Source: Rhizobium sullae (GTDB lineage Bacteria > Pseudomonadota > Alphaproteobacteria > Rhizobiales > Rhizobiaceae). From it: DNA of 64,000 bases. Positions 2 to 59,250 of the stretch are shown here, in pieces. The position numbers were made by a program, and so were the translations under genes. Under the pieces are notes generated by a model. That model was not told where the DNA came from and did no database searches. It worked only from the letters and a program-made list of their open reading frames with translations. Within the stretch, counting starts at the first letter, position 1. Each line of letters begins with the position of its first letter. The stretch lies in assembly GCF_025200715.1 (NCBI RefSeq), contig NZ_CP104143.1:2707501-2771500 (forward strand). The letters run 5' to 3'.

Positions 2-346
2 AAGACCTACCATGTACAGGTCGACCGCATCATGGATGCGGAATCGCTCGCCGAAATGACATACGGCATCCGGAACGACGGCGAAGTGCTGACGGCGACG
101 GCGGCACGGCTCCTGCGGAGCGGCGATAGGAACTCCTGGATTGAGGTGGAACTCGACGAGGGCCGCAACCGGCAGATTCGCCGCATGCTCGAAGCCACGG
201 GCGCCGAGTGCCTGCGGCTGGTGCGGGTTGCGATCGGCGGGCTTGATCTCGGAGAACTGCCGAAGGGCTCGGTCCGCACATTGACCGAGGCGGAACTGCG
301 CGACCTGAAGCGGCGGGCGGGCATGGAAAGAACAGGGCGGAATTGA
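2..346 (+). CDS. Pseudouridine synthase, RsuA/RluB family (C-terminal part, cut by window edge)
   Basis: The reading frame is open from base 2, so the 5' part lies outside the window; 114 residues are visible. It begins KTYHVQVD and contains GRNRQIRRMLEATG, the conserved C-terminal block of the RsuA/RluB/RluE/RluF pseudouridine synthases, which isomerise uridines in rRNA. The catalytic Asp block and any N-terminal S4 domain are upstream and unseen, so the target cannot be assigned. The stop shares one base with the start of the next gene, which suggests co-transcription. Confidence 0.85.
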   Translation, partial: KTYHVQVDRIMDAESLAEMTYGIRNDGEVLTATAARLLRSGDRNSWIEVELDEGRNRQIRRMLEATGAECLRLVRVAIGGLDLGELPKGSVRTLTEAELRDLKRRAGMERTGRN

Positions 347-1047
347 TGCAGATGGATGACATCACGCCGCATGATTTCTGGCAGGAGCTCCATCCGCCGG
401 GCAGCTTCCCGACGGATGGCGATTTCACCTCATTCTATGTTGCGGAACTGGAGGACGGCCGCCAGCTCCGTCTGCCGATCCGGGCGCTTGCCGACGGCGA
501 ACACGCGCTCGCCTCGCTCATCGTCAACCAGGCGAGCTTCGCCGTACTCGATGCGCTGGCCGGGCAACTGGCGGCAAAGATCGATCACTTCGACATCGAC
601 ATCGTCGCGGGCCTGCCGACGCTCGGGTTGACCCTTGCTGCCGCCGTTGCGCAAAAGCTCGGACACGCGCGTTACGTGCCCTTCGGAACCTCCCGGAAAT
701 TCTGGTATCGCGACGACCTTTCGGTCTCCCTGTCGTCGATCACCACGCCGGAGCAGCAGAAGCGTCTTTATATAGACCCGCGTATGCTGCCGCTGCTTCA
801 GGGCCGCCGTGTCGCGCTGATCGACGATGTCATCTCCAGCGGCAGCTCGATCGTCTCCGGTCTGCAACTGGTGGAGGCCTGCGGCATCGAGCCCGCCGTC
901 ATTGCCGCAGCGATGCTGCAATCCGGACGCTGGCGGGAGAAGCTTGCCGCTACAGGCGCCCAATGGCCCGATCGCACTGTCGGCGTCTTTGCGACGCCGT
1001 TGCTCGAAAGGACGGCAGAGGGCCGCTGGCGCGCGCCCACCGCCTGA
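346..1047 (+). CDS. Phosphoribosyltransferase-like protein
   Basis: A soluble 233-residue protein with the type I PRTase PRPP-binding loop RVALIDDVISSGSSI at about residues 162-176, including the two acidic residues and the S-S-G-S segment. Upstream, DIVAGLPTLGLTLAAAVAQ resembles the PPi loop. Such proteins are annotated as adenine/xanthine or orotate PRT-like, but the base specificity cannot be read here. I chose the ATG at 346, which overlaps the previous stop by one base; a TTG three bases upstream is less likely. It could act in purine salvage, but nothing in the neighbourhood proves this. Confidence 0.75.
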   Translation: MQMDDITPHDFWQELHPPGSFPTDGDFTSFYVAELEDGRQLRLPIRALADGEHALASLIVNQASFAVLDALAGQLAAKIDHFDIDIVAGLPTLGLTLAAAVAQKLGHARYVPFGTSRKFWYRDDLSVSLSSITTPEQQKRLYIDPRMLPLLQGRRVALIDDVISSGSSIVSGLQLVEACGIEPAVIAAAMLQSGRWREKLAATGAQWPDRTVGVFATPLLERTAEGRWRAPTA

Positions 1048-1149
1048 TCGTGCGCAACATGAGGATTGTTCGACCTTTCCTCGCGCCCTCCCTATACAGC
1101 CCCCATCGAATGGCTACATTCCGCTGACGGTTGAAACGCGAGCCCACAC

Positions 1150-2895
1150 ATGACGTTCGAGCAAGCATCCCTGCTGATCCTTCTCTCGGCGATGCTCATT
1201 CTGTTCTCGCTGGACCGTGTCCGCATCGAGGTCGTGGCGATCGGCGGCCTGCTTGCCGGATATGTGCTCGGGCTTTACCGCGCCGATCAGGTCTTCGCCG
1301 GTTTCGCAAGCCCCGTCGTCATCACAGTCATCGAGATTCTGTTGATTGTTCAGGTGCTCGCTCACGCCAAACTGTTCGATAGCCTCTCTGTGCGTTTTGC
1401 CGCCATCGGACTATCTGGCTTCGCGGTCATCGCCAGCCTTTCGGTGATCACCGGTTTCATCTCGATCTTCATGAACAACATCGGCGCCTTCGCGATCATG
1501 CTGCCCGTCGCGATCCGCATCGGCGCCGCCATGAATATCCCGCAGCGTCAGCTTATCATGCCGCTTTCCTTCGCAGCACTTCTCGGCGGCCTCATATCGC
1601 TAATCGGAACGCCGGCCAATCTGCTGGTCAGCGATGCATTGGCCAAGGCAACGGGCGCCGGCTTTCATTTCTTCGACTTTGCCTATGTAGGCCTCCCCGT
1701 CGCGATCGCTGGAATTCTGCTGATGGCCGCCTTCGTTCCGCTTCTGCTTCCGGAAGCGGACGGCCAGCCTGCCGATGCGCCGCCAGCCCGGCGGCGCATC
1801 GTGACGGAACGGCGCATTCCTGAGGGTTCGCCGCTTGCCGGCGTGCGGCTTCTCGATTGCCCCCGCCTCTTTGAAATCCAGCCGCACGCATTGATCCGCA
1901 GCGGCCAGTTCGTCTTCGGTCCGCTCGATCAGTCGACCATCGCGGCAGGCGATACCTTGCTTGCCGAAGGCGCCGACACGGTCTTTGCCGATCTGGCAGC
2001 CTCGGCGGCGCTCGTTCCGGAAATCGATGTGAATGGATTGCAGCCGGATTTCACCCGGATTGAAGCCGTTGTCATGCCGGAGAGCACGCTGGTGGGCTCG
2101 CGCATCCGCTCACTGGAGGTCTTCAAAAGCCGGAACGTCGCGGTTGCCGCACTCTCCATGCGGTCGCCACGGATTGAGGGCCGCTTCGAGGATCTGCAGC
2201 TCTCGATCGGCGATATCCTTGTGCTCGAAGGCCCGGCCGAGGCGGTTGCCGAAGCGCTTGAAGAATGCGAGTGCCTGCCGCTCGCCTCCCAGCCCGCAGG
2301 CGAGGCGATGTCGAATGCTTGGCTGCCCTTCGTGATCTTTGCTGCTGGAGTGATGCTTTCCGCTGCCGGTCCCGCCCGCCCGGAGATCGCATTTGCGGCT
2401 GTCGTGCTCGCTCTTGCGCTGATGGGCTATCTCAACATCCGTCAGGCCATGGCGGACATTAACTGGCCGATCGTCATCATGCTGGCCGCGATGATCCCGA
2501 TCGGCTCGGCCGTCGCGACGACGGGCACGGCCGAGATGATCGCCGACTGGCTGAGCCTATTCGTGCCGATATCGATGCCGCTTGCCGGGATCGCACTCCT
2601 GCTTTTCATCGCCATGGCACTCACTCCTTTCGTCAACAACGCGACGGTGGCGATCGTGCTCAGCCCCGTGGCGCTGGAATTCGCGGAGGTGGCGCATCAT
2701 GCCCCGGCGGCGTATCTGATTGCTGTTGCCGCCGGCGCATCGCTCGATTTCCTGACGCCCTTCGGCCACCACAACAATACGCTGGCGATGAGCATCGGCA
2801 GCTACCGCGTTTCAGACTTCCTGCGCGCCGGCAGTCCCCTGGCTGTTGCTTCCTATCTTCTCACCGTTCTTCTTGTTGCCCTGATCTGGCTTTGA
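1150..2895 (+). CDS. SLC13/DASS-family anion permease with two RCK_C (TrkA-C) domains
   Basis: A 581-residue inner-membrane transporter. Residues 1-200 and about 390-581 form two membrane halves. Between them, about 216-285 and 300-375, are two cytosolic RCK_C domains of the kind fused to SLC13-type permeases (for example residues 227-246, SPLAGVRLLDCPRLFEIQPH). The repeated signatures of this fold are present: MNNIGAFAIMLPV with IGTPANLLV in the first half, and FVNNATVAIVLSP with TPFGHHNNTLAM in the second. The family transports sulfate, dicarboxylates or other small anions with cations; the substrate is not predictable. It is preceded by about 100 bp of non-coding DNA that should hold its promoter. 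Confidence 0.88.
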   Translation: MTFEQASLLILLSAMLILFSLDRVRIEVVAIGGLLAGYVLGLYRADQVFAGFASPVVITVIEILLIVQVLAHAKLFDSLSVRFAAIGLSGFAVIASLSVITGFISIFMNNIGAFAIMLPVAIRIGAAMNIPQRQLIMPLSFAALLGGLISLIGTPANLLVSDALAKATGAGFHFFDFAYVGLPVAIAGILLMAAFVPLLLPEADGQPADAPPARRRIVTERRIPEGSPLAGVRLLDCPRLFEIQPHALIRSGQFVFGPLDQSTIAAGDTLLAEGADTVFADLAASAALVPEIDVNGLQPDFTRIEAVVMPESTLVGSRIRSLEVFKSRNVAVAALSMRSPRIEGRFEDLQLSIGDILVLEGPAEAVAEALEECECLPLASQPAGEAMSNAWLPFVIFAAGVMLSAAGPARPEIAFAAVVLALALMGYLNIRQAMADINWPIVIMLAAMIPIGSAVATTGTAEMIADWLSLFVPISMPLAGIALLLFIAMALTPFVNNATVAIVLSPVALEFAEVAHHAPAAYLIAVAAGASLDFLTPFGHHNNTLAMSIGSYRVSDFLRAGSPLAVASYLLTVLLVALIWL

Positions 2896-2969
2896 ACGCC
2901 ATTTGCTTGACATCCCCCGGAATGAAACTAGAGCAAGGATGAACCCGAGCGATAAAGGACCGCCCTGCA

Positions 2970-3914
2970 GTGCGAATTCTCTCCGAAGCCCATTTCCCCG
3001 AACTGCCGAACTATTACCGCGGCAAGGTGCGCGAGAATTACGACCTTCCGGATGGCAGCCGCATCATCATCAGCACCGACCGCCTCAGCGCTTTCGACCG
3101 AATCCTGACCTGTGTCCCTTATAAGGGCCAGGTACTGACGCAGACGGCGCGCTACTGGTTTGAGGCGACGAAGGATATCTGCCCGAACCATGTCATCGCT
3201 TATCCGGACCCGAATGTCGTCATCGGCAAGCGGCTCGACATCCTGCCCGTCGAGGTCGTCGTGCGCGGTTATCTCGCCGGCACCACCGGCACGTCGATCC
3301 TCACTCTTTATAAGAAGGGCGAGCGCGAAATGTACGGCATGCGCCTGCCGGACGGTATGCGTGACAACCAGCGCCTGCCCGAGCCGGTAATCACTCCCAC
3401 CAGCAAGGAATTCGACGGCGGCCATGACGAGCCGCTGACGCCTGGCGAGATCGTCAGCCGCGGGCTGCTGACGGTGGAACAGTGGGAAATGCTTTCCAGA
3501 TACGCGCTGGCGCTTTTCGCCCGCGGCCAGGAAATGGCTGCGAAGCGCGGCCTCATCCTTGTCGACACCAAATACGAATTCGGAACGGACAAGGACGGCA
3601 ATATCATCCTCGCCGACGAAATCCACACGCCGGACAGCAGCCGCTACTGGCTCGCGGACAGCTTTCAGCAGTCCTTCGAAGCGGGCACGCGCCCTGCAAG
3701 CTTCGACAAGGATTTCGTCCGCGCCTGGGTCGCCGAACGTTGCGACCCCTATAAAGATGAGATCCCCGAGATCCCGGTCGAACTGATTGAGCAGACCTCG
3801 AAGGTTTACATCAAGGCCTATGAGGCGATTACCGCCCGGTCTTTCGTGCCGGATGACAGCGGCGAAACCCCGGTTGCCCGTGTCCGGCGCAACCTTGCGC
3901 GCTATTTCCCTTAA
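2970..3914 (+). CDS. purC: Phosphoribosylaminoimidazole-succinocarboxamide synthase (SAICAR synthetase)
   Basis: A 314-residue cytosolic enzyme of de novo purine synthesis that ligates aspartate to CAIR with ATP. The N-terminal block [18 protein letters not shown], the segment STDRLSAFD, the loop [11 protein letters not shown] and the motif [12 protein letters not shown] are characteristic. The length (314, against about 237 in E. coli) and the sequence match the longer yeast-ADE1-like type; rhizobia often carry a second, short purC elsewhere. The start is GTG, with AAAGGA about ten bases upstream, and this is the only start that keeps the conserved N-terminus. Confidence 0.95.
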
Positions 3915-4025
3915 AAGTCCGGGACGAACCGCCCGAAAGCAGCCTCTACGCTTGCGGGTTTTCGCCTGAAGGCGCTAACATCGGCAAATAAGAGGTGCCG
4001 GCCGGAAAGGCCAGCGGGGGAACGA

Positions 4026-4628
4026 ATGGCACGAAGGCCGCGGCGCAAGGCCGAGGAAACGCGGGAAGACATTCTGTCGATGGCCGAATTGCTGTTCCGC
4101 CAGCGCGGTTTCGTCGCCGTATCGATCGCCGACATCGCCTCCTCCCTCGGCATGTCGCCGGCAAATGTCTTCAAGCATTTTCATTCGAAAGTGGCGCTCG
4201 TCGATGCCATCGCCGAGCGGCATCTCGGCAGCGCTACCGAGCGCTTCGGCTCTTTCGACCGAAATCTGCCGCCGAAAGAGCAACTGCTGCGTTTCGTGCT
4301 TCGGCTTCTCGACAGCCACCTTAAGGACATTCAGGAAAACCCCTACATCTTCGAAATGGTGCTGACGACAGTTCAGGCGAAGCTTGAAGCGGGTAATCGC
4401 TACCGCGAGCGAATCGAGCAGAAACTCCAAGAAATCATCCGCGACGGGGTTAGCTCAGGCCGTTATAAATGTGCTGATCCCCGTCGCGCCGCCCATACCG
4501 TTGCCGATGTCCTTGCATCGGTGCTGCACCCCGTGCTGATCGCCCGTGACGATAAGGATGCACTCGTACGCAGGGCTGAGGAGATCGTCTGTTTTGTGGA
4601 TACTGCACTGCAAAATAGCGCTTGCTAA
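4026..4628 (+). CDS. TetR/AcrR-family transcriptional regulator
   Basis: A 200-residue DNA-binding repressor. Residues about 12-60 form the TetR N-terminal helix-turn-helix, with typical segments LFRQRGFVAVSIADIA and ANVFKHFHSK. The C-terminal ligand domain is divergent. It lies immediately upstream of, and codirectional with, an RND efflux operon, the usual position of a local repressor that releases the pump genes on binding a pump substrate. Its stop codon lies inside a perfect inverted repeat that may be its operator. Confidence 0.9.
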   Translation: MARRPRRKAEETREDILSMAELLFRQRGFVAVSIADIASSLGMSPANVFKHFHSKVALVDAIAERHLGSATERFGSFDRNLPPKEQLLRFVLRLLDSHLKDIQENPYIFEMVLTTVQAKLEAGNRYRERIEQKLQEIIRDGVSSGRYKCADPRRAAHTVADVLASVLHPVLIARDDKDALVRRAEEIVCFVDTALQNSAC

Positions 4629-54385: not shown

Positions 54386-55609
54386 ATGGCCGAAATCCGC
54401 AGAGGCTTTACGGCGCCGAAAGAAGTCACCGGCTATTTCGAGGGTAAGACGCTGAAGCCGGCCTTCTCCTGGCTCGACGTCTGGGGCGAGGAACACGCCT
54501 ATGCCTTCACCGTTGCCAAGGCCACGGAAGCGGAGGTGCTTTCCGTCTTTCACCAGACAATCGGCGACGCGATCCGGAGTGGCAAAGGCTTCGAGCGCTG
54601 GAAGGAAGATGTCCAGGTCGAACTTCGAAAGCTCGGCTGGTGGGGACCCCGCATGGTCGGTGATCCGACCGGCGAGCAGCCGGACCGGATGGCGGACTTC
54701 TCCAGCTCGCGGCGTTTGAAGACGACCTTCTGGTCAAACATCAACTCGGCGCGTGCGGCCGGGCAATGGGAAAGGGCGCAGCGTACCAAGAAGGTACTGC
54801 CATATATTCTGTATGTCCGGACCACCTCTGGCGATCCCCGGCCGGAGCACCTTGCGTGGGTCGGAATTATTCTTCCGGTCGATGATCCGTTCTGGCGGAC
54901 GCACTGGCCGCCGAATGGCTGGGGCTGCAAATGCCAAGTGCGGCAGATATCGGCACGGGAGGCGGAAAGGCTCCTCGGCCGCGCGCCGAAAGACGGCGGG
55001 ATCATCTATCGCAGCTCGCCGCCCGATCTCGGCCCCGATGTTCAGCATCGGAATCGCCGGACCGGCGAGCTGACGATGGTGCCGCCTGGCATCGATCCGG
55101 GCTGGCAAACCAATGCCGGCCTATCGCGAGCGACTACGCTGATCCAGAACCTTGAAGAGCGCCTCGCCACGACGCCGGCCGCCAGTGCCACCGAGATCCT
55201 GACTGACCTTTGGAAGGACCCTTATCTGCAGCTTGCACCGCGCCTTGAGCCGAAGGTTTGGCTTCCCGCCGGCGTCTCTGATCAGCTTGCCGAAGATCTC
55301 GGCGCCAAATCGCCCGTCGTGTCGATCACCGGCGCGGCGATCGCCGATCGTATCGAGCGTCATAAAATGTCCATCGAGGATTTTTCATTCCTGCCCGAGA
55401 TCCTCGATCAGGCTCTTGTTATGCCCGATCGGAAGGGCAGTGACCGTGGCCGCACGCTTTACCGGATGATCGGGAAAGTCTTCTGGCGCGCCTTCGTCAG
55501 TGTCTCCGAGAACGGCTATCTACGCGTCAACTCTCTGCACCAGAAGAACCGCAAAGAGTTGAAGGCCGAGTTCGATCGGCTTGGAAAAGATTGGCCATTT
55601 GGGGAGTGA
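54386..55609 (+). CDS. Phage head morphogenesis protein (MuF-type) with C-terminal PBECR-like domain
   Basis: A 407-residue minor head protein. Residues about 1-210 are the Mu F domain, with TTFWSNINSARAAGQWERAQ, LPYILYVRTTSGDPRPEHL and WPPNGWGCKCQVRQISAREA. The last 130 residues (VWLPAGVSDQLAEDLGAKSP through RVNSLHQKNRKELKAEFDR) match the PBECR-type nuclease-like domains often fused to MuF proteins. A role as injected effector or toxin is inferred, not shown. In many Mu-like phages the virion-morphogenesis or protease gene follows directly; here a reversed cargo gene follows. Confidence 0.88.
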   Translation: MAEIRRGFTAPKEVTGYFEGKTLKPAFSWLDVWGEEHAYAFTVAKATEAEVLSVFHQTIGDAIRSGKGFERWKEDVQVELRKLGWWGPRMVGDPTGEQPDRMADFSSSRRLKTTFWSNINSARAAGQWERAQRTKKVLPYILYVRTTSGDPRPEHLAWVGIILPVDDPFWRTHWPPNGWGCKCQVRQISAREAERLLGRAPKDGGIIYRSSPPDLGPDVQHRNRRTGELTMVPPGIDPGWQTNAGLSRATTLIQNLEERLATTPAASATEILTDLWKDPYLQLAPRLEPKVWLPAGVSDQLAEDLGAKSPVVSITGAAIADRIERHKMSIEDFSFLPEILDQALVMPDRKGSDRGRTLYRMIGKVFWRAFVSVSENGYLRVNSLHQKNRKELKAEFDRLGKDWPFGE

Positions 55610-55814
55610 GGCGCGGCAGGGAGGGACCGCTTCCCGGCCTGTCCGGGCTCCCTCCATTGGGCATCGAGGCCACCGGGCTTCACTGCCGCGCTAACATACA
55701 ATAATCCACCTTCCTTCTGATCGCAATCGGCGCCTTTTTCAATGAATTGAGAAATACTCAGCGTTCGCTGCAACCGGTCCCCAGCACACATCCAGACACG
55801 CAGCTCGCCCTTTT

Positions 55815-57947
55815 CTACTCCGCACTTTCAGCAACCGGCTGTTCCTTGTTCGGCTGCTTCCTCGCAGCATCACCGACCCTTACAGCCAGATGAGAGGAGT
55901 TGAAAATCTTGGCGACGGTTTCGGAGTTCTTTGCTTCATCTTCGTCATACTTCCATGGCCAAACCAATGGCAGTAGACCGTCGATGGCGATGTCAGTCTC
56001 TACGCTATCAAGAATCACATACCAGCGATCGCTCCTGGTATCGTATTTGTGCTTAGCGCCGATCGCATCTGCGGCGCGCGCGGCATTCGCATCGCATTTT
56101 GCGGTCACCGCATAAGTGAGACCACCGTTCGCTGTCGGAATCGAGAACGCCTTTATCGCCTTGCCGGTGGCGGTGATCTCTTTTCGAAGTTTGAGAATTG
56201 TTGCGGATATTTCTTCCAGCGCCGCGCTCGAGAAATCGTAGAGATCGATTACCACTGCCGCTATCCTCGGATCCGCCGTCTTAAGCTCATCGAGAAGCTC
56301 AGAAATAATTGGGATTTTAAGACGCTCTAACACACCGAGCGGCCGTTGCGCTTTGATTCCAACGTCGGACGCCATCATGTAATCATCGATCGCCGTTGCG
56401 AAGTCCCGCTCCAGCATCATGAAGTCGGCTTCATCCGGCAAAGCGAGCTTGGCGCTAAGATGGTAGCCGAGGAAGTTATACTCACTATCTGAATGTACTC
56501 TGTCAAAAACCTCTGACCGGGATTTGAGATAAAAGAGCATCTCGATGGGAGTGGGCAGAATGCGCGTGACGCAATCCAGTACGCCGAGATCCCAAATTAC
56601 GGGCGCGATGTCCTTGTCGCGTTCAAGCAGCTGTCCCGAAAGGAACGTGGACGCCGGAAATGGATCGCTCAAGATCACAATCGGAAAAAGACGCGGCAGT
56701 GTCGGAAACTCAAGTACCTTACCGTCCTTGGCAATACATTTTGCACCCTTGCGAATAAGCTCCAGGCATCCGAGTGCCTGCTGATACGGGGCTTGGATGG
56801 CCCCCTCAAAGTCTACCCTCAGCGCATCCGTGTCGCCGGCCCGTGCCTTCAGGGTTACCCGTTTGGATTTCGCCTGGACAACGAGAACGAATTCGCCATA
56901 GACAACCAGCACATCGACTTCTCCGGCAATATCCTTCGACCCATCTCGAATCGTGACGTTCTCGAAGACATTTTCCTTTCCAAAGACCCGCCCGAACATG
57001 TGTGCTGCGGTATGCTCCAAGAAATCTCCGCGATGCTTCGAGGTCGTGTTGCAATACGCCTTGTCCGCCATCATCCAATAAAATGGGCTTTCATAAATCG
57101 TCTCAAAGAGACGATACTGGTTTGGCACGTAAAGGTTCTCGCCAAATTCAATGATCGGCGCAATTGCGACTGCGTTTATTGCAAAGGGGTCGGTAAATCC
57201 GGCATTTGCGCCCGTGACGGGTGTCGCGAACTTCGCGAAGAACGCATCAGCCTTTGCACCAAATTTCTTGCGCACCTCGGCCTTCGAAATCAGCAGACTG
57301 CTAGTGAGTTCCCCTTTCGTGAACTCACGCCCTTCTTCGCGTAGGTGGCCAACTGCAGTCATATTGGAGTTGACGCGGTCCACGATGAATTTTGCGATGT
57401 CAATCATCGGACGAACCGATAGCCCTGCATTTTGCAGGAGCCATATCGCGTCCTCCTTATAGCGCTGCCTACTCAGACCTGGGAACTGATGAAGATATAG
57501 ACTTTCCGCCCCGTAGTAGATTGCCTCGCGCGCCGTCAGACCAATTGCGTCTGGACGTTCAATGAATGTCTCAGAGCCCGGGTCGAAAGCCGGGGCACAG
57601 TCTAGCAGAATGCGGTCATGAAACTCACGCAGCAGCTCATCCGCACGCGGCGCAAATGTATCATCGACATTGTACACCGCATGAGTCCGTTCATCCGGTG
57701 ATTGGACGACAAGACCGAGCAGGAGCATCAGCTCGTTCTTATTGAGCTTTGAAGTTGACCATCGATGATCTGGGTCGTCAACGACACGGCCGTCCTGCAC
57801 GTCAATTCTGACAACCCAATCTCGATAGATAATTGCCGAGATTTCGTGGAGGGCACCATCCTCCCGTGCAAGTGCAACTAGGTCCGCGAAAATCTCGGCA
57901 GAGGATCGCGGTTCCGGTCTTCGCAATTCACCTTCCTGTTCCGTCAT
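55815..57947 (-). CDS. Prophage cargo protein with PD-(D/E)XK nuclease-like core (710 aa), candidate defence gene
   Basis: From the ATG at 57947, behind GAGGGGAAA, it encodes 710 residues. At about 311-360 the text FLEHTAAHMFGRVFG, then AGEVDVLVVYGEFVLVVQAK, fits the restriction-endonuclease fold: Glu311, Asp345, and Gln358-x-Lys360, like NERD or Mrr-type nucleases. The N-terminal 300 residues and the C-terminal 350 are not recognised. The open frame upstream of 57947 is noise. It lies opposite to the phage late genes between two head genes, with a private promoter region, as cargo genes do. DNA cleavage is predicted, not proven. Confidence 0.75.
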   Translation of the reverse strand: MTEQEGELRRPEPRSSAEIFADLVALAREDGALHEISAIIYRDWVVRIDVQDGRVVDDPDHRWSTSKLNKNELMLLLGLVVQSPDERTHAVYNVDDTFAPRADELLREFHDRILLDCAPAFDPGSETFIERPDAIGLTAREAIYYGAESLYLHQFPGLSRQRYKEDAIWLLQNAGLSVRPMIDIAKFIVDRVNSNMTAVGHLREEGREFTKGELTSSLLISKAEVRKKFGAKADAFFAKFATPVTGANAGFTDPFAINAVAIAPIIEFGENLYVPNQYRLFETIYESPFYWMMADKAYCNTTSKHRGDFLEHTAAHMFGRVFGKENVFENVTIRDGSKDIAGEVDVLVVYGEFVLVVQAKSKRVTLKARAGDTDALRVDFEGAIQAPYQQALGCLELIRKGAKCIAKDGKVLEFPTLPRLFPIVILSDPFPASTFLSGQLLERDKDIAPVIWDLGVLDCVTRILPTPIEMLFYLKSRSEVFDRVHSDSEYNFLGYHLSAKLALPDEADFMMLERDFATAIDDYMMASDVGIKAQRPLGVLERLKIPIISELLDELKTADPRIAAVVIDLYDFSSAALEEISATILKLRKEITATGKAIKAFSIPTANGGLTYAVTAKCDANAARAADAIGAKHKYDTRSDRWYVILDSVETDIAIDGLLPLVWPWKYDEDEAKNSETVAKIFNSSHLAVRVGDAARKQPNKEQPVAESAE

Positions 57948-58178
57948 TTTCCCCTCTCGGTGCGCGATGCAGTGAAACCAGCCAACCCGGCAGCGCTCTC
58001 GCCTGCAACCAAACTTAGAAATCGCCACAGGCGCGCACAAGAGGCGTCGGCCGGCCGGATACCCGTAACTGACCCGAAAAACGCGCCCACGGGCTTTGAA
58101 AGGCCTTTGATTTTGACGCACGCACGTTATGCTAGGAGACGAAAGCGGTTCGCGGCCGCTTGAGGCGGCAAATAACCG

Positions 58179-58194
58179 GCTGACAGCTGTCAGC
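58179..58194. promoter_or_regulatory. Late-promoter activator site 2 (palindrome GCTGACA-GC-TGTCAGC)
   Basis: Perfect 7-bp arms identical to those of the site at 48041-48056, with a different 2-bp spacer, 37 bp before the protease start. About 27 bp downstream is GTATTG, a possible -10. This would restart late transcription after the reversed cargo gene. Confidence 0.65.
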
Positions 58195-58230
58195 CCCAAG
58201 GCCGCTACCTGATCTGGCAAGTATTGCCTC

Positions 58231-59250
58231 ATGATCACTTGCACCGCAACCACCCCCCCGATTTCTTGTTTGGCCGCCGCCTCGGCAACCGTCGAGGCCG
58301 AAGCTCTCGCCATGACCTCCGTCACGGCGATCGACGTTTTCGCGGCCGACGCGAAGGCGGCTGATGCCAAGACTGGTCCGGAGTGGATCAAGCTCACGCC
58401 GCGTGGCGCCTTCACCAGCCGCGACGGTCGCTCCTTCATTGTCGAGCCGGAGCTACTCGTCGAGCGCTTCAATGCCGACAAGGTTGCCGTTCCCCTCGAT
58501 CTCGACCACGCCACCGTCAAGAAGGCGATGTTTGGCGAGGCTGCGCCGGCAGTTGCCTGGATCGAGGAGCTGCAGGCGCGGCCGGAGGGTCTTTATGGCC
58601 GCGTCAACTGGCTGCAGCCGGGCCTCGACGTGCTCACCGCTCGCTCCCACCGCTACATCTCACCGTCTCTCAAGACAGACGAAACTGGCAAGGCCGTCTG
58701 GCTGCATTCGGCCGCCCTGGTCGCGGCACCTGGAATTTCCATGCCGGCCGTCGCGTCGGCCGATCTCAACGTCAAGAAGGAAACCACCATGCTGAAGGCA
58801 ATCGCCCGAGCCCTCAATCTCACGCCGGAAGCCAGCGAGGCGGCCTGTCTTTCAGCGATCGGCGATCTCGGCAAGCGCGTCGACCCGAAGGTTCACGAGC
58901 AAACGCTCGCCACGCTTTCGGCCACGACGACCGAGCTGAACATGCTGAAGGCGGCGCAGCGCAAGGAGAAGGTCGATACGCTGCTCGAAGGTGCACTGAC
59001 GGCCAAGAAGATTTCGCCGGCCCAGCGTGAAAGCTACGAGGCCCTCTGCGCCACCGACGACGGCCTGGCGCAGGTGACGAAGCTGATCGAAACGCTCGGC
59101 GCCGGCCTGCAGGCTTCCGGCCTGGACAAGAAGACGCCGCCGGACGCAACCGTTTACACGCTATCGGCCGAGGACCGGGACATCATGAAGCAGCTCGGCG
59201 TCACCGAAGAGGAATTCCGCAAGGCCAACGGCCTTCCGGCCGCCGCCTAA
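58231..59250 (+). CDS. Mu I-like prohead protease
   Basis: A 339-residue protein. The protease half (about 45-180) has EWIKLTPRGAFTSRDGRSFI, VAVPLDLDHATVKKAMFGEA and SHRYISPSLKTDETGKAVWL with AAPGISMPAVASA near its end, as in Mu gpI. The C-terminal half is a helical scaffold. No good ribosome site precedes ATG 58231, and the activator palindrome is only 37 bp away, so the leader must be very short; an internal ATG at 58312 is an alternative start. Confidence 0.88.
   Translation: MITCTATTPPISCLAAASATVEAEALAMTSVTAIDVFAADAKAADAKTGPEWIKLTPRGAFTSRDGRSFIVEPELLVERFNADKVAVPLDLDHATVKKAMFGEAAPAVAWIEELQARPEGLYGRVNWLQPGLDVLTARSHRYISPSLKTDETGKAVWLHSAALVAAPGISMPAVASADLNVKKETTMLKAIARALNLTPEASEAACLSAIGDLGKRVDPKVHEQTLATLSATTTELNMLKAAQRKEKVDTLLEGALTAKKISPAQRESYEALCATDDGLAQVTKLIETLGAGLQASGLDKKTPPDATVYTLSAEDRDIMKQLGVTEEEFRKANGLPAAA
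58789..59250 (+). CDS. Internal in-frame scaffold protein (Mu Z-like)
   Basis: An ATG inside the protease gene, preceded by AGAAGG at an eight-base spacing, opens the same frame for 153 residues (MLKAIARALNLTPEASEAAC onward). In Mu the scaffold Z is made from an internal start in gene I, and the position and ribosome site here repeat that plan. Confidence 0.6.
   Translation: MLKAIARALNLTPEASEAACLSAIGDLGKRVDPKVHEQTLATLSATTTELNMLKAAQRKEKVDTLLEGALTAKKISPAQRESYEALCATDDGLAQVTKLIETLGAGLQASGLDKKTPPDATVYTLSAEDRDIMKQLGVTEEEFRKANGLPAAA

Follow-up and report, generated by a model that had tools for sequence, protein, structure and literature searches.

The question raised by this locus is why a Mu-like prophage should carry, between the genes for its MuF head protein and its head maturation protease, a gene that runs against both of them and encodes a protein of 710 residues. 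The window analysed here is a stretch of 64,000 nucleotides from Rhizobium sullae (contig NZ_CP104143.1, positions 2,707,501 to 2,771,500), and a sequence-only reading of it had proposed that the reversed gene, in the following called the cargo gene, is prophage-borne anti-phage cargo with a restriction-endonuclease core. Our analysis supports this proposal, and we assign a probability of roughly 0.75 to the cargo gene being an exchangeable single-gene defence cassette borne by a Mu-like prophage. The basis consists of an intact gene with conserved catalytic residues, a nuclease fold in a confident structural model, an exchangeable slot, and the known defence systems that related phages carry at this site. 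The slot provides stronger evidence for a defence function than the protein does.

To describe the slot, a MuF profile was searched against IMG/VR, where 540 stretches encode a relative, and the best 80 loci were kept. The gap between MuF and protease was measurable in 76 of them (72 distinct slot sequences); the contigs of L090, L119, L130 and L148 end before any protease and were left out. The gaps, whose lengths are approximate as protease starts were extrapolated from tblastn, range from 133 to 4128 nucleotides with differing occupants: 41 are shorter than 450 nucleotides, 28 measure 450 to 1199 and seven at least 1200. The expectation that Mu-like late operons run from MuF to the protease without interruption thus failed in this lineage, in which no gap among the 76 relatives is shorter than 133 nucleotides and 35 of the 76 reach 450 or more. 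All seven large slots are poorer in guanine and cytosine (GC) than the rest of their locus, and each differs in gene content. PADLOC recognised known or candidate systems in five of the seven, in two cases through candidate (PDC) models: a Pycsar pair in L112 (PycTIR 2.2e-120, PycC 1.5e-105), PifA in L143 (2.2e-129), Dsr1 in L145 (8.1e-80, with the first 315 residues as best stretch), the KAP NTPase of PDC-S20 in L107 (1.3e-77) and PDC-M19B in L099 (1.5e-34). The L107 slot also contains a gene with weak similarity to SIR2 (PADLOC 3.8e-4; Pfam 1.5e-3, which misses the cut-off), while DUF2806 and DUF2971 proteins occupy L100 and a Schlafen AlbA_2 protein occupies L139. At E≤1e-20, PADLOC matched six of 17 slot open reading frames (ORFs) versus none of 104 sampled from 372 non-slot ORFs, a contrast that is indicative only, because the control ORFs are mostly core phage genes. 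The 17 include one protein twice (L100, L028) and do not extend to the shorter ORFs in the large slots, e.g., one of 178 residues in L099. The site thus shows two features of a prophage defence hotspot: what lies between the two conserved phage genes varies, and several different known defence systems occur at one place.

Within the window, the slot is filled by the cargo gene alone. The closest relative among the loci kept is L107, with protein identities of 83% for MuF and 94% for the protease. DNA homology to L107 ends at 55548, returns at 55603-55693 for 91 base pairs at the structured element that borders the slot (93%, L107 7962-8052) and then resumes from 58028, and homology to L112 and L072 reaches up to 55689-55694 and is back at 58016. 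From these breakpoints it can be concluded that the exchanged unit comprises about 2.3 kilobases with the cargo gene as its only gene. As claimed before, this gene is an intact minus-strand ORF; it extends over 710 codons from an ATG at 57947 without internal stops, and it is single-copy in the R. sullae genome. It also lies in the more AT-rich DNA that had been noted, with a GC content of 0.530 (0.582 at third codon positions) versus 0.613, 0.622 and 0.647 for MuF, portal and protease (0.725, 0.739 and 0.800 at third positions); the major capsid gene has 0.564. A ribosome site of its own is likely, given by the purine-rich GAGAGGGG just before the ATG. An ORF arising by chance was ruled out, as 200 block-shuffled versions of the segment gave stop-free frames of at most 288 codons and at least 273 homologues of the protein are found in databases. 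Since the gene is exchangeable and the relatives' slot holds known anti-virus systems, its most likely use is in fighting off competing viruses.

With regards to the protein, the residues that had been read as a catalytic centre were found at their positions: E311, D345 and Q358-A-K360 provide the E...D...(E/Q)xK motif of PD-(D/E)XK nucleases and, together with E343, show no variation across the 43 sequences of an alignment that contains the query. The match to the Pfam NERD family (PF08378) stays below threshold (18.4 bits versus a gathering cut-off of 22.1, E 0.0031), and a PF08378 label is precomputed for several of the close homologues. The predicted model (predicted local distance difference test score 89) carries a PD-(D/E)XK core of restriction-endonuclease fold, in agreement with the fold expected for residues 300-380. 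In a Foldseek comparison, the sole PDB match below 1e-3 was Upx (PDB 9wuf; E 3.6e-6, template modelling scores 0.33/0.21), aligned with a root-mean-square deviation of 11.7 across the entire alignment and about 10% identity; the global score is thus low. This alignment spans residues 15 to 564 and thereby includes part of the N-terminal domain in addition to the nuclease core. Hence, of the claim that both flanking domains resemble nothing known, the N-terminal half had to be qualified; for the C-terminal half, no informative match to that region was found, with a weak model there. The model further suggests fold similarity to Can2 and Card1. Distant members of the NERD family (L003, L004, L050, L051) have a C-terminal SEC-C-like motif, and the window's protein has none.

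The family is sporadically distributed and occurs on plasmids, conjugative elements and other prophages. At E≤1e-3, and counting the window's own genome in each census, it was found in 12 of 394 genomes of the family (five with E<1e-50), 12 of 397 of the order (eight) and four of 385 of the class (all four). Among 72,556 plasmid records, 33 carry a homologue, and Agrobacterium accounts for 19 of the 33. Across the nine plasmid regions inspected there was no recurrent partner gene. Recombinase or integrase genes occur in L055, L057, L059, L061 and L062, a type I restriction system in L062, a PDDEXK nuclease with a DUF4209 protein in L061, a Fic protein with an abortive-infection-family protein in L063, a P-loop NTPase with a toxin-antitoxin pair in L060 and transposases in L056; L058 has none of the recombinase, defence or transposase gene types. 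Elsewhere, the homologue has a Fic protein on one side and a conjugative coupling protein on the other (L048), lies near an integrase (L002) or adjoins a transposase (L049). Eight IMG/VR contigs encode a homologue, and at least two of these bear phage genes unlike those of this prophage (a tape-measure gene in L064, a P22-type portal in L069). None of 50,697 phage records matched the cargo protein.

Taken together, the position and slot company, which are like those of the P2 and P4 phage hotspots, the nuclease fold with its catalytic residues and the match to Upx lead us to read the cargo gene as a prophage-borne single-gene defence nuclease. In the lysogen, it would be transcribed from a start region of its own, on the strand that does not encode the late operon, and the presumably metal-dependent NERD-type site (E311, D345, Q358-x-K360) would cut the DNA of a superinfecting phage or another incoming element. 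The helical N-terminal and the C-terminal domains may contribute to recognition, or they may hold the enzyme inactive until a phage infects, and the nuclease itself would be expected to discriminate between self and non-self. Direct cutting of invading DNA is a tentative choice, held at slightly less than even odds, but we rate it higher than a triggered mode in which DNA damage brings the cell to a halt.

Several results weigh against a defence nuclease of this kind. The cargo protein was unmatched in all 80 MuF loci, in slot or flank, so that the search for the same gene at this site in other Mu-like phages came back empty, and the Mu head genes of the window were unmatched in 35 further records of NERD loci, which represent about 30 places and often include a flank of only about 1.5 kilobases. 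PADLOC, NCBIfam and PHROGs gave no significant match for the cargo protein, by which membership in any of their families was ruled out; its best PADLOC score was to the viperin-associated NERD model (E 0.022). The resemblance to Upx is structural and partial only, as judged from the model, and neither the cargo protein sequence nor a profile at E≤10 matched the Upx chain. A promoter scan gave no sigma-70-like site for the cargo gene. As to the slot, PADLOC gave nothing significant in two of the seven large ones (L100, L139), and the 104-ORF control is a lenient null.

The strongest alternative concerns the mode of action. The protein may be an abortive-infection effector, a silent nuclease that is triggered by a phage product and cuts host and phage nucleic acid until the cell stops. 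Can2 and Card1, to which the model suggests a likeness, are triggered nucleases, and for Pycsar and PifA, which occur in the relatives' slots, the excerpt of PMC10884400 describes sensing of the major capsid protein and action by abortive infection. The searches made, which cannot prove absence, identified no sensor or ligand-binding domain, and we consider this mode possible but rather doubtful. The role could also be one in counter-defence, with the gene aiding its phage against host immunity, as the anti-CRISPRs of phage D3112 do, instead of shielding the lysogen. Anti-CRISPRs do occur in a comparable place, as AcrF2 lies between gene G and the protease of D3112 and the accessory region RGP G holds such genes (excerpt of PMC4378225). 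However, the accessory ORFs of RGP G mainly have 34-100 codons according to the same excerpt, whereas a 710-residue nuclease is found here; its homologues are solitary on plasmids and chromosomes, and wherever PADLOC identified a slot occupant, it was a defence system. This explanation is accordingly quite unlikely.

Still less probable are the two explanations without any function in immunity. Phages do encode nucleases, and the location between two head genes would suit a part in the lytic cycle or morphogenesis of the prophage itself, as a head-associated or host-DNA-degrading enzyme. Yet none of the 80 MuF loci has a match to the gene although MuF, and the protease in 76, are conserved, it sits on the opposite strand with deviating base composition, and homologues occur on plasmids or in chromosomal loci unmatched to these head genes, so that such a part is highly improbable. 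A required head component of related phages, which would have contradicted the sequence-only reading, was rejected, as the 80 MuF loci hold no match and the 35 other NERD records, many with short flanks, show no match to these head genes. An equally improbable origin is the chance acquisition of a housekeeping or DNA-repair protein. NERD is named a DNA-processing-related domain in the title of Grynberg and Godzik (2004), but the sporadic occurrence in the three genome censuses, the repeated presence on plasmids and viral contigs, and catalytic residues that stay intact within a prophage speak against it.

The coordinates of the gene, its domains and its surroundings are summarized in Table 1. 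The PHROGs annotation confirms the Mu-like setting, with MuB-like, terminase, portal, decoration and capsid genes around the cargo gene. The left slot border is a conserved structured element in which several predicted pairs are kept through compensatory changes on both sides. Its three-armed structure pairs 86.4% of cells versus at most 51.5% when slid and beats shuffles on four of five measures, further pair types being the exception (461 of 500 shuffles reached the value), in a test that favours the structure, since the window's own sequence served to derive it. The single-sequence folds of the window and L072 disagree in the inner arms, and Rfam has no match for the element. By a short pattern, it was located just after MuF in 24 of 76 slots, e.g., in L072, L081 and L112. 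In L107, the element is positioned between two cargo genes. The right border consists of TTTGAAA-like repeats and a palindrome, 36-140 nucleotides upstream of the protease, and 53 of 76 loci have a TGAC-N4-GTCA palindrome at most 250 nucleotides ahead of the protease. By analogy with PI, the late promoter of phage Mu, this block is a candidate late-promoter or late-activator site.

Table 1. Features of the cargo gene and its slot (positions in the window)
Feature	Position	Strand	Evidence
710-residue NERD/PD-(D/E)XK cargo gene (P0001)	55815..57947	-	ORF, Pfam, model
N-terminal domain, mostly helical, residues about 8-276	57120..57926	-	model; part inside Upx alignment
PD-(D/E)XK (NERD-type) nuclease core, residues about 299-426, with E311, E343, D345, Q358, K360	56670..57053	-	Pfam, alignment, model
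C-terminal region, residues about 460-697, helices then beta-beta-alpha-beta-beta	55857..56570	-	model
Likely ribosome-binding site of cargo gene, purine-rich GAGAGGGG	57951..57958	-	read from sequence, just ahead of ATG
Exchanged segment, cargo gene only	55695..58015	.	DNA homology to related phages
Conserved structured non-coding element, 83 nucleotides, left slot border directly after MuF	55610..55692	.	covariation, folding
Conserved block (GGGCTTTGAAAGGCCTTTGA..., palindrome GGCTGACAGCTGTCAGCC = GGCTGACA-GC-TGTCAGCC), right slot border	58091..58195	.	conservation
MuF / minor head protein, left neighbour	54386..55609	+	phrog_220, E 3.9e-73
Head maturation protease, right neighbour	58231..59250	+	phrog_328, E 5.6e-64

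Some slots of relatives showed further features. The Pycsar pair (L112:6402-8025) looks complete and sits within a Mu-like head operon, and L099:6386-9035 encodes, beside PDC-M19B, a 378-residue protein with an ARNDFLHG motif that has no Pfam or PADLOC match. Among the 28 mid-sized gaps, 19 have a reverse-strand ORF of 140-176 residues, 17 with a hydrophobic, signal-peptide-like start by eye. Such ORFs, possible surface or periplasmic exclusion proteins, are seen at L075:6329-6772, L076:6340-6852, L077:6335-6772, L082:6364-6786, L101:6342-6776, L106:6339-6794 and, in a large slot, L112:8022-8543.

In a wider view, the MuF-protease gap of related Mu-like phages may be a general hotspot for defence cargo with a structured element and a promoter-like block as borders. 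In the same reading, the cargo protein is a single-gene immune nuclease that has so far escaped recognition, is perhaps distantly related to Upx, and has reached several bacterial phyla by way of plasmids, conjugative elements and prophages; we give this reading as a whole somewhat better than even odds. If true, defence genes of a group of transposable phages could be harvested from one place between two head genes, as for P2 and P4, and a family of presumed immune nucleases with at least 273 database members would be added. Since the slot lies inside the virion-building operon and holds systems such as PifA and Pycsar, reported to be capsid-sensing (PMC10884400, in excerpt), prophage self-tolerance becomes directly testable.

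Among known systems, the structurally closest, Upx, is one that we take to be a single protein like the one encoded here, though with 1212 versus 710 residues. NERD defence proteins are fused to or stand beside helicases, kinases or viperin. Upx is counted among immune systems in the excerpt of PMC12629846, and the nuclease domain of Mokosh type I, Nhi-like and viperin-associated NERD proteins is of the same type as here (excerpt of PMC10952713); unlike these three, the cargo gene stands alone. Defence genes in Mu-like prophages are already known, as defence systems were found experimentally in E. coli prophages, some of them Mu-like (PMC9519451, in excerpt). This passage describes neither the MuF-protease position as a defence site nor the cargo protein, and the position is without description in the excerpts of related literature examined. 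The P2 and P4 hotspots are likewise small loci of high turnover between two conserved phage genes with diverse anti-phage systems (excerpt of PMC9122126), but they belong to other phages and other positions; for other species, the same excerpt names Vibrionaceae P2-related and Bacillus prophages and no Mu-like ones. A closer counterpart may be found in D3112, annotated with the gene order portal, F, G, AcrF2, two small ORFs and protease. From this annotation we infer that RGP G, the low-GC accessory region of Pseudomonas Mu-like phages (excerpt of PMC4378225), is the site equivalent to the present slot. In both, accessory genes of low GC content separate the head gene block from the head protease; in RGP G these are short same-strand genes after gene G, whereas here a long reverse-strand nuclease gene directly follows MuF.
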